Shown one piece after another: positions 1-1,960 of a DNA stretch of 41,367 nt (position 1 is its first letter; every line of letters starts with the position of its first letter). The position numbers were made by a program, and so were the translations under genes. Origin of the DNA: a bacterium (GTDB taxonomy: Bacteria; Vulcanimicrobiota; Xenobia; Xenobiales; JADMJV01); the NCBI GenBank assembly GCA_030149525.1, contig JASBRJ010000157.1, positions 1-41,367 on the forward strand, given 5' to 3'. Under the pieces are notes generated by a model that was not told the DNA's origin, did not search any database, and was given only the letters and a program-made list of their open reading frames with translations.

Positions 1-2
1 CT

Positions 3-452
3 GCTCACCAGGCAACCCTCGATGCGAAGGGCGAAACGATGGCTGTTGTCGGTACCGGAATCACAAGATATTTTCCGGCCAAGAATCGGGCGCTACAGGA
101 GCGACTGGAAAAAGAAGGGGCTGTCTTGTCTCAGTTTTTTCCAGATCACCCCCCTCAGAAACACAGCTTTCCGATGCGAAACTTGGTGATGTCGGGAATT
201 GCGCTGGCCACGGTTGTAGTTGAGGCCACCGAAAAAAGCGGGACGAAGAGCCAGGCGAAGGGTGCCCTAAAGCATGGCAGGATGGTCTTTTTCACGAAGT
301 TTGCGCTTGCAGGCGCCAAGTGGGCCCAGGAGATGGTGGGGCTTCCGAGTGTTTATGTGATTAAGTCGCCTGGCGATTTGTACGGCCCCCTGGAAGAGGC
401 GCTGAATCCGAAGACCCCGTCAGACTTTGAGCAACTCGCCCTTAACATTTGA
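3..452 (+). CDS. DprA/Smf-like protein, 5' end missing (ShosA-like antitoxin candidate)
   Basis: This is the C-terminal part of a DprA/Smf Rossmann-fold protein. The reading frame is open back to position 3, where it reads AHQATLDAKGETMAVVGTG, matching the DprA 'AH..AL..GG.TIAVLGTGID' block. The first internal ATG (39) is therefore not the real start. Further family marks are the RYFPAKN segment, the FPMRN motif (canonical FPxRNRIISG), VVVEATEKSGT and the A-x-x-GR stretch. After that the tail departs from chromosomal DprA: there is no PG..G.N..I..GA block. Its stop overlaps the start of the phosphoribosyltransferase gene by 4 bp, so the two are probably translated together. Housekeeping DprA protects incoming DNA during transformation. 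The pairing with a PRTase instead suggests the ShosA role, the antitoxin of ShosTA defence systems (recalled from the literature, not checked here). The fold is clear; the role is inferred. Confidence 0.75.
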   Translation, partial: AHQATLDAKGETMAVVGTGITRYFPAKNRALQERLEKEGAVLSQFFPDHPPQKHSFPMRNLVMSGIALATVVVEATEKSGTKSQAKGALKHGRMVFFTKFALAGAKWAQEMVGLPSVYVIKSPGDLYGPLEEALNPKTPSDFEQLALNI

Positions 453-1189
453 GCACGTTTAACGAGCAATATCACCGAATCTGCAATGCCTTTGCCGAGT
501 TCCGTCTTCGATGTCCCCCGAAGATTAGACAATGCAAAGTCTGCCACGGCCCCCTATTCAATCCGGATTACTCAAGTTGCTATCTCTGCGAGCACCACTC
601 GAGCTATTTAGCCGGTCACTGCCTAGACCTGCTTACCACGGTCTCCATCTGCTTTGACGATGAGCAGTTCTACCAGGACTTGATGAACTACAAGTCAACC
701 CTGTTGACCAATGAGCAACTCCAGGAGCTAAGGTTCAACCTCAGCATCGTCTTGCACCGCTTCCTCGCAGAGAACCCATCCTTGTACCAACAGATGGCCC
801 CGGACCTAATCTGCTGGATTCCATCGACCAGACGCGAGTACGATCCGATGGAGACCATTGCGAAGTCTATCTTCCCAAATCACGCTACCCAACTCCTTGC
901 CTCGACTGGACTCATCGCCAATCGCAGAAATCCGGACCTGACAAGGTTCAGCGTGTCGCAGGATGTCAACGGAAAGAGTGTGCTGATATTAGACGACCTA
1001 ATGACGTCAGGTTCGCACCTCTTCAGCGCGGCTGGCGTATTGAAGCAAGCCGGAGCATCCAGGGTGAGCGCAGTGACGCTTGGGAGGTTTGTAAGGGCAT
1101 CAGACCACCCCGGATACAAACGAGTGGTTCAGACGACTTCGTATAGGTGGAACTGGCCGACCGAAAGGGCCGATGGATTTCTTTTTTAA
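449..1189 (+). CDS. Zinc-ribbon phosphoribosyltransferase, ComF-like (ShosT-like toxin candidate)
   Basis: This 246-residue protein starts at a TTG inside the 3' end of the DprA-like gene. An N-terminal four-cysteine zinc ribbon (C29, C32, C44, C47) precedes a type-I phosphoribosyltransferase domain. The PRPP-binding loop is VLILDDLMTSGS at residues 178-189, with the paired acids at D182 and D183. This architecture matches the ComFC family. ComF proteins normally act in DNA uptake, but comF is not usually overlapped by a dprA-type gene. DprA-like plus PRTase is the composition of ShosTA, in which the PRTase is the toxin. The next feature downstream is a probable terminator near 1407, so the pair looks like a complete two-gene unit. 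The biochemical substrate cannot be told from sequence. A competence function remains possible. Confidence 0.75.
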   Translation: MSTFNEQYHRICNAFAEFRLRCPPKIRQCKVCHGPLFNPDYSSCYLCEHHSSYLAGHCLDLLTTVSICFDDEQFYQDLMNYKSTLLTNEQLQELRFNLSIVLHRFLAENPSLYQQMAPDLICWIPSTRREYDPMETIAKSIFPNHATQLLASTGLIANRRNPDLTRFSVSQDVNGKSVLILDDLMTSGSHLFSAAGVLKQAGASRVSAVTLGRFVRASDHPGYKRVVQTTSYRWNWPTERADGFLF

Positions 1190-1406
1190 GCGGCTGCAAG
1201 TCTTTTGTCCGAGTTAGATTTACTTTTGCCCAGTTTTGCCGCTTATTGCTGGGGTTTTACTGAACGTTGCAACGGCGGCGTTTGTAGCCTCTTTAAAGAC
1301 CATTTCCCCCTTTTTTCCCTTTTGTCCTAGAGATCTGAGGCTAGGGAAGGGCACGTATGCAGAGCATTGAACCTCTCTCAAGAAAAACACCGCTCTAGAA
1401 ACAGAA

Positions 1407-1456
1407 GAGCACCGGGGCCAACTTGCTGGTTCGGGAACCCGGTGCTCACATTGTTT
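1407..1456 (+). terminator. Rho-independent terminator after the DprA-like/PRTase pair
   Basis: GAGCACCGGG (1407-1416) is perfectly repeated in inverted form as CCCGGTGCTC (1438-1447). A 21-nt loop lies between, and a TTGTTTTTT tract follows. It sits about 220 bases after the PRTase stop and would end that transcript. Confidence 0.65.
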
Positions 1457-1485
1457 TTTGACAACAGGATACTTTACCCGACTCC

Positions 1486-1522
1486 CCGCTCACTCCTGGT
1501 TTTCGAGGTCCGGAGTGGGCGG
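1486..1522. other. 11-bp stem-loop upstream of tRNA-Sec
   Basis: CCGCTCACTCC (1486-1496) pairs with GGAGTGGGCGG (1512-1522), with one G-U pair, around a 15-nt loop. No T-run follows, so it is not a standard terminator. It could be a structural element of a transcript or of a recombination site; nothing in the sequence decides this. Confidence 0.4.
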
Positions 1523-1599
1523 TTGAGAGTTGTTTCGGCATAGAAAGGTGGAACATTTGGTGGAACACTCCGAGGCAAGATTTCTTCCAGTCCCGTAGT

Positions 1600-1691
1600 G
1601 GCAACGGTTTGAGCCCGTGCCTAAACGGTCTTCAAAACCGTTGTTGCGCTTCACAGCGCTGGGAGGGTTCGACTCCCTCGCGTTCCCGCCA
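1600..1691 (+). tRNA. selC: Selenocysteine tRNA (anticodon UCA), imperfect acceptor stem
   Basis: The anticodon arm is ACGGT-CTTCAAA-ACCGT (1625-1641), placing UCA at 1632-1634. A long variable arm forms a perfect 5-bp stem GCGCT/AGCGC (1646-1659). The T arm is GAGGG/CCCTC with loop TTCGACT. The gene encodes discriminator G and CCA (1688-1691). The D arm has a tRNA-Sec-like 4-nt loop (CCGT), but its stem contains an A-C mismatch. The 8-bp acceptor pairs GGCAACGG (1600-1607) with GCGTTCCC (1680-1687) and shows two mismatches, C-C at the third pair and G-G at the eighth. It would deliver selenocysteine at UGA through SelB. The acceptor defects could mean decay, or replacement of the 3' end by recombination; the repeats just downstream support the second. 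No selenoprotein gene is evident in the window. Confidence 0.72.
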
Positions 1692-1747
1692 CTTCGAGGG
1701 AGGCGAAGCCCCGGGTTCGTAAGGCGAAGCCGCTACGAGGTCTTCCG
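1670..1747 (+). repeat. Direct repeat copy A, beginning within the tRNA-Sec T loop
   Basis: From CGACTCCCTCG through the tRNA CCA and on to GAGGTCTTCCG, this 78-base unit recurs almost unchanged at 1884-1960, with only about four differences. The shared part includes the last 22 bases of the tRNA gene. This is the kind of duplication left when an element integrates at a tRNA 3' end. Confidence 0.8.
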
Positions 1748-1750
1748 AGT

Positions 1751-1775
1751 CTCCTTCGCGTTCCCGCCATTTGAG
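1751..1775 (+). repeat. Short third copy of the tRNA-Sec 3' end
   Basis: CTCCTTCGCGTTCCCGCCA followed by TTTGAG repeats the acceptor-CCA part of the tRNA with one change in the CTCCCTCG segment. It lies directly after copy A and lacks the downstream part of the longer repeat. Confidence 0.65.
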
Positions 1776-1842
1776 CTGTTGAAGTTGCCAGCTAGCAGAG
1801 AAGTCCCACTTGAGTCCTCCTGTCTGACAATTCGTTAATAAT

Positions 1843-1883
1843 GGGAGGGTGGCTCCGCTTCGCTCCGCGTTGGCTTCGCCAAG
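1843..1883 (+). repeat. T-arm copy interrupted by a 33-bp GC-rich insert
   Basis: GGGAGGGT (1843-1850) matches the 5' side of the tRNA-Sec T arm (1661-1668). CGACTCCCTCG, which should follow it, resumes only at 1884. The 33 bases between (1851-1883) contain TTGGCTTCGCCAA, a 13-base near-perfect palindrome. The arrangement looks like a small insertion into the T loop of a duplicated tRNA end. Confidence 0.55.
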
Positions 1884-1960
1884 CGACTCCCTCGCGTTCC
1901 CGCCACTTGAGGGAGGCGAACCCTCGGGTTCGTAAGGCGAAGCCGCTACGAGGTCTGCCG
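1884..1960 (+). repeat. Direct repeat copy B of the tRNA-Sec 3' end
   Basis: This is the 77-base second copy of the unit at 1670-1747, starting 214 bases after the first. It reproduces CGACTCCCTCG and GCGTTCCCGCCA and the flanking CGGGTTCGTAAGGCGAAGCC segment. It is consistent with an att-type duplication. Confidence 0.8.

Follow-up and report, generated by a model that had tools for sequence, protein, structure and literature searches.

A second apparent tRNA-Sec beside a ShosTA-like gene pair: most likely the displaced 3' half of the chromosomal gene at one end of an integrated island

The selC islands of enterobacteria target the tRNA-Sec gene, which is reused by several islands, and their crossover lies at the 3' end of the gene. 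It is established that elements integrate into tRNA genes, whether through the anticodon loop, the T loop or the T/acceptor junction, that the gene is restored and that a fragment of it is displaced to the far end (PMC4383910); Islander includes 2083 islands with an anticodon-centred site (PMC4383910). The mis-annotation of tRNA gene fragments as whole tRNAs is also established (PMC9897764). A gene pair encoding DprA and a phosphoribosyltransferase, from a P2-like phage hotspot, protected E. coli against phages T7 and lambda, and in shosTA the DprA homologues serve as antitoxins (PMC9122126).

The window described here is the whole stretch of DNA that was analysed, 41,367 nt from the start of a contig (JASBRJ010000157.1) in an 8.27-Mb bacterial genome of the Vulcanimicrobiota. 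As with the selC islands, the target is tRNA-Sec and has been reused, but the latest crossover here was most likely at the anticodon loop and not within the last 22 nt of the gene. The locus resembles islands of the anticodon or 'A' subsite (Williams 2002; Islander, PMC4383910) in that a regenerated tRNA lies by an integrase and sequence identity runs from the anticodon loop and, as proposed here, in that a displaced 3' fragment lies at the other end in the same orientation; it is unlike them in having tRNA-Sec as the target, in the 8-Mb size of the genome and in the breaking of the island between two contigs. The type of event is familiar, and what is less usual is the anticodon-loop target in tRNA-Sec, its repeated use within a single class and a 3'-half exchange that can be seen directly. 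A literature search of open papers turned up no description of tRNA-Sec islands with an anticodon-loop site, a negative that carries little weight.

ARAGORN called a tRNA-Sec at window positions 1600-1691, and Rfam made the same call. The genome has a second, canonical tRNA-Sec on another contig (C119:9251-9344), for which the Rfam score was 73 bits versus 53.4 bits for the window copy, the latter passing the gathering score of 47. Upstream of the C119 gene are SerA, a 173-aa protein and a sigma factor, an order that is also found in G001, G002, G004 and G005 (sister genus) and is partly kept in G010 and G012, which belong to more distant families; this conserved synteny indicates that C119 holds the ancestral tRNA-Sec. 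A tyrosine integrase (C119:9469-10608; Pfam PF00589, 7e-22) is convergent with the gene and ends 124 nt past it. The preliminary description had suggested looking upstream of the window for an integrase gene; an integrase is indeed at tRNA-Sec, on C119, and the intact regenerated gene is the C119 copy and not the one in the window. When named genomes were searched with this integrase, only distant relatives in Bacillota were recovered, at 26-30% identity. Directly behind it, an ORF of 297 aa (C119:10605-11498) runs up to the contig end and had no match in Pfam, PADLOC or NCBIfam.

To compare the two copies, profile HMMs were built separately from the 5' halves and the 3' halves of 18 genuine tRNA-Sec genes. 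The 3'-half HMM scored the window copy and the C119 gene at 51.2 bits each, whereas the 5'-half HMM found C119 at 25.6 bits and did not find the window copy. The shared sequence of the two copies starts at CGGTCTTCAAAA, within the anticodon arm; downstream of CGGTCTTCAAAA the variable arm differs between them, and the last 32 nt are identical. In the window copy the acceptor carries a C3-C mismatch and the D stem is broken, so that the genuine 5' half, D arm and full acceptor pairing of a functional gene are lacking. From these comparisons, the 'tRNA-Sec' of the window is most likely a displaced 3' half of the chromosomal gene, extending from the anticodon arm to CCA (1627-1691, + strand) and representing a putative attR, which lies behind weakly tRNA-like island DNA that both ARAGORN and Rfam read as a 5' half (1600-1626, + strand). 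A native tRNA-Sec at this position was ruled out by synteny together with the 5'-half HMM.

The 27 nt preceding the displaced half are somewhat more tRNA-like than expected, with good acceptor pairing, and their similarity to genuine 5' halves was reached at 0.1-1.9% of random positions in a simple alignment. The window copy could instead be a second, formerly functional tRNA-Sec, either a tandem duplicate or an island-borne copy, whose 5' half has decayed; this would suit its position above the Rfam gathering score, an acceptor strand that is paired except at one or two positions and a 5' half closer to that of G012 than >99.8% of random positions. We consider such an origin unlikely, given the broken D stem and the failure of the 5'-half HMM, and given that both the arm site (see below) and the identity boundary in the window match those seen in relatives, where the sequence 5' of the displaced half is clearly not tRNA. 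Displaced copies elsewhere scored 34.6 and 29.7 bits with Rfam, below the 53.4 bits of the window copy. On the displaced-half reading, the window copy is comparable to the mis-annotated tRNA fragments described previously (PMC9897764), in that a displaced fragment with foreign 5' sequence was accepted by tRNA finders, and differs from them in being called as tRNA-Sec and in lying above the Rfam cut-off; a false second tRNA-Sec accepted by both programs would thereby be corrected.

The two contigs are linked by a 20-mer, GTGGAACATTTGGTGGAACA, of which there are exactly two perfect copies in the genome, one between the C119 tRNA-Sec and the integrase (C119:9445-9464) and the other 59 nt before the displaced half of the window (1548-1567, + strand). 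The simplest reading of these copies is that they are putative integrase arm sites forming the two arms of attP, with the window copy on the left (P) arm of the island, and paired TGGACAC motifs resembling the GTGGAACATTTGGTGGAACA pair occur in both arms of the tRNA-Sec insertions in G001, G004 and G006. Arm sites at both ends would place attL on C119 and attR in the window, as the two ends of one island, and we regard it as very probable, on the sequence evidence, that window positions 1-1626 are the attR-side end of an integrated island of which C119 is the integrase end. C119 has the features expected of an island end, with an intact regenerated tRNA and an integrase close by, and the displaced fragment at 1627-1691 comprises the 3' half only, its same orientation and its linkage holding only if the contigs are joined as proposed. 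We infer this joining through one island, as the assembly keeps the contigs separate and lacks the interior of the island.

Because C119 and the window contig are unjoined, in an assembly of 398 contigs with an estimated contamination of 4.5%, and because G001 shows that related elements are able to accrete at the tRNA-Sec site, the two could alternatively be ends of two different tRNA-Sec insertions, for example in a tandem array, or one contig could be a contaminant. This seems improbable to us in view of the arm site, which is identical at these two ends and confined to them, the identity of the last 32 nt of the two tRNA copies, the equal GC content of the flanks (0.553 vs 0.554) and the finding of no third displaced half in the genome. 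With C119 and the window as the ends of a single island, the integrase would pair attP with tRNA-Sec and recombine the two within the anticodon-loop segment, the island would bring a replacement 3' half (variable arm, T arm, acceptor strand and CCA) so that tRNA-Sec stays functional, and the old 3' half would be shifted to the far island end. The identity boundaries in five genomes agree with such a putative strand exchange at the anticodon loop; the exact crossover base and the present mobility of the island are points that we infer.

For comparison across the bacterial class, 18 genomes were used. Four of them, G001, G004, G006 and G017, carry a displaced tRNA-Sec 3' half, in each case starting in the anticodon arm or loop, and in three (G001, G004 and G006) an integrase adjoins the displaced half. 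The displaced half of G001 lies 26 kb from tRNA-Sec on one contig, and G002 has a relic of an integrase C-terminus beside its tRNA-Sec. An uninterrupted locus, which the preliminary description had proposed to seek in related genomes, was found in G005 of the sister genus, in which the gene just right of the G004 displaced half directly follows tRNA-Sec; the genomes available from the same genus offered no such site. Letter for letter, the displaced half in G004 is the tRNA-Sec 3' half of G001, G003 and G005, and the regenerated tRNA-Sec of G004 has a different variable arm, which indicates that one 3' half was exchanged for another by the insertion. The variable arms of C119 and the window would, by analogy, differ through the same kind of exchange, with the window holding the pre-insertion version.

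We lean towards the view that tRNA-Sec is a recurrent anticodon-loop site in this class and that islands repeatedly overwrite its 3' half, exchanging the long variable arm (outright in G004, presumably in the genome studied here). One tRNA-Sec gene would then have been split and re-supplied several times across the class, and the consequences of the natural 3'-half replacement for selenocysteine insertion would be testable. The earlier proposal of a reused integration site at tRNA-Sec is thus upheld by the occupied and empty sites in relatives and by the integrase, but the anatomy differs from the one that it assumed, and most likely the position of the latest crossover does too.

Three of the relatives showed further arrangements at this gene. 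In G003 (L054; G003:C85:47556-47647) the tRNA-Sec lies between conserved flanks in an orientation opposite to that of relatives, as if the segment had been inverted, and a displaced copy was not seen. The displaced 3' half of G017 (L059; G017:C38:18040-18101) lies only 1.1 kb past the intact gene, and no integrase was found near it; it has the appearance of a nearly emptied insertion and is called by ARAGORN as a second tRNA-Sec. The tRNA-Sec insertion of G006 (L061; G006:C343:2374-7705) encodes a Prim-Pol/DUF3987 protein together with an integrase that shares 34% identity with the C119 enzyme, an arrangement that recalls phage satellites.

On the island side of the putative attR, the window begins with a ShosA-like gene of the DprA family (3-452, + strand), cut by the contig start so that the C-terminal 149 aa remain (PADLOC ShosA, 2.1e-32; Pfam DNA_processg_A, 7e-29). 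It overlaps by 4 nt with a ShosT-like phosphoribosyltransferase gene (449-1189, + strand; PADLOC ShosT, 9.7e-11, a local match; Pfam Pribosyltran, 1.4e-6), of which no close second copy was found in the genome. PADLOC recognised adjacent ShosA and ShosT genes, with ShosA incomplete at the contig start, and we interpret the pair as island cargo next to attR and as a putative ShosTA-like defence system. Like ShosTA (PMC9122126), it has a DprA-like gene next to a phosphoribosyltransferase gene, carried by a mobile element; unlike that system, it has an incomplete ShosA and a local ShosT match, and its function is putative. The suspected link between this defence-like pair and the integration site is supported by its place on the island side, and a ShosTA-like pair would in this way be tied to a mobile element. 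When 10 proteins from the islands of G001 and G006 were run through PADLOC, no defence match was obtained, so the defence cargo belongs to one island and is not a rule at the site. Downstream of the pair, a 10-nt perfect inverted repeat, GAGCACCGGG/CCCGGTGCTC, followed by TTGTTTTTT (1407-1447, + strand), was read from the sequence as a possible terminator; it is absent from a simple terminator scan because its loop is long.

On the other side of the putative attR, the end of the tRNA is repeated. The last 22 nt of the window tRNA-Sec call and 56 nt of flank (1670-1747) occur again at 1884-1960, and this 78-nt repeat had 95% identity in a gapped self-comparison (E=3e-25; offset 213-214, with one 1-nt indel). 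Within it, CGACTCCCTCGCGTTCCCGCCACTT is an exact 25-nt match (1670-1694 and 1884-1908, 100%), and the 52 nt at 1696-1747 are 94% identical to 1909-1960. The first flank copy (1692-1747, + strand) adjoins the displaced half and has no genomic copy other than the one at 1909-1960. It is followed by a short diverged copy of the tRNA 3' end (1748-1775, + strand), with 84% identity over the 25 nt of 1748-1772, made up of the 3' strand of the T arm, the acceptor, CCA and TTTGAG; a third copy of the 3' end, from the T loop onwards, stands at 1884-1960 (+ strand) with the second flank copy. The preliminary description had noted the nearly intact downstream repeat and a third short copy at 1751-1775, and both were borne out, the latter to within 3 nt.

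Across the whole 8.27-Mb genome, with up to three mismatches allowed, the tRNA end (24 nt) matched only at C119:9321 and at window positions 1668 and 1882, and the flank (26 nt) had two matches only, both in the window; among 38 relatives the flank was not conserved. The two checks that had been suggested, for repeats occurring through the genome apart from tRNA-Sec and for repeats conserved unchanged in relatives, were therefore both negative. The repeats are real, far above chance and specific to tRNA-Sec. A genome-wide palindromic repeat family was ruled out by the confinement of the flank to these two sites, as was a simple 214-nt tandem duplication by the differing spacers between the copies. 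The repeat pattern and the C119 integrase were also sought in viral contigs, and neither was found. Within the flank repeat, a 17-nt stretch is a 94% match to the tRNA T arm in reverse complement (1663-1679 vs 1909-1925), so that base pairing between the tRNA 3' end and its flank is possible.

The exact repeat at 1884 begins in the T loop and continues into 52 nt of flank, and its start does not fit a crossover at the anticodon loop. We mildly favour the view that earlier insertions or excisions at this tRNA end left behind the 78-nt repeats and the short copy; in that case an older element at the T-loop subsite would have had its attachment sites at 1670-1747 and 1884-1960 and left 136 nt between them. 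A local duplication in hairpin-rich DNA, unrelated to integration, is a plausible alternative although in our judgement probably not the correct one: the stretch is rich in inverted repeats with GGCGAAGCC-type hairpins, the copies lie within 214 nt, and the DNA between them holds neither an integrase nor an element body, but each copy starts inside or at the end of the tRNA, in the usual register of attachment sites, the unrelated spacers argue against a plain tandem duplication, and G001 offers a parallel in a displaced half followed by ~96 nt with homology to the sequence that flanks the G001 tRNA-Sec. As for the successive insertions or excisions proposed earlier, the small repeats at 1748-1960 are probably scars of older insertions, though each need not stand for a separate one; what had been a puzzling repeat now stands beside a mapped island end. 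Upstream of the third copy, GTCTGACAATTCGTTAATAATGGGAGGGT (1821-1850) looks like a decayed tRNA-Sec from the anticodon arm to the T arm, and if it is one, the third copy would also have begun at the anticodon. The segment CCACTTGAG is found again at 1806-1814.

The island lies upstream of the window tRNA copy and the chromosome resumes to its right, with ordinary chromosomal genes that include glutamyl-tRNA synthetase and RecJ. A comparison of this right flank with relatives gave no matching neighbourhood and weak matches only, to a cyclase domain and an aminoacyl-tRNA synthetase. Just right of the repeats is a small ORF (2060-2251, 63 aa, beginning MDPNKLTIKPSP), followed by a perfect hairpin with a T run at 2271-2299.
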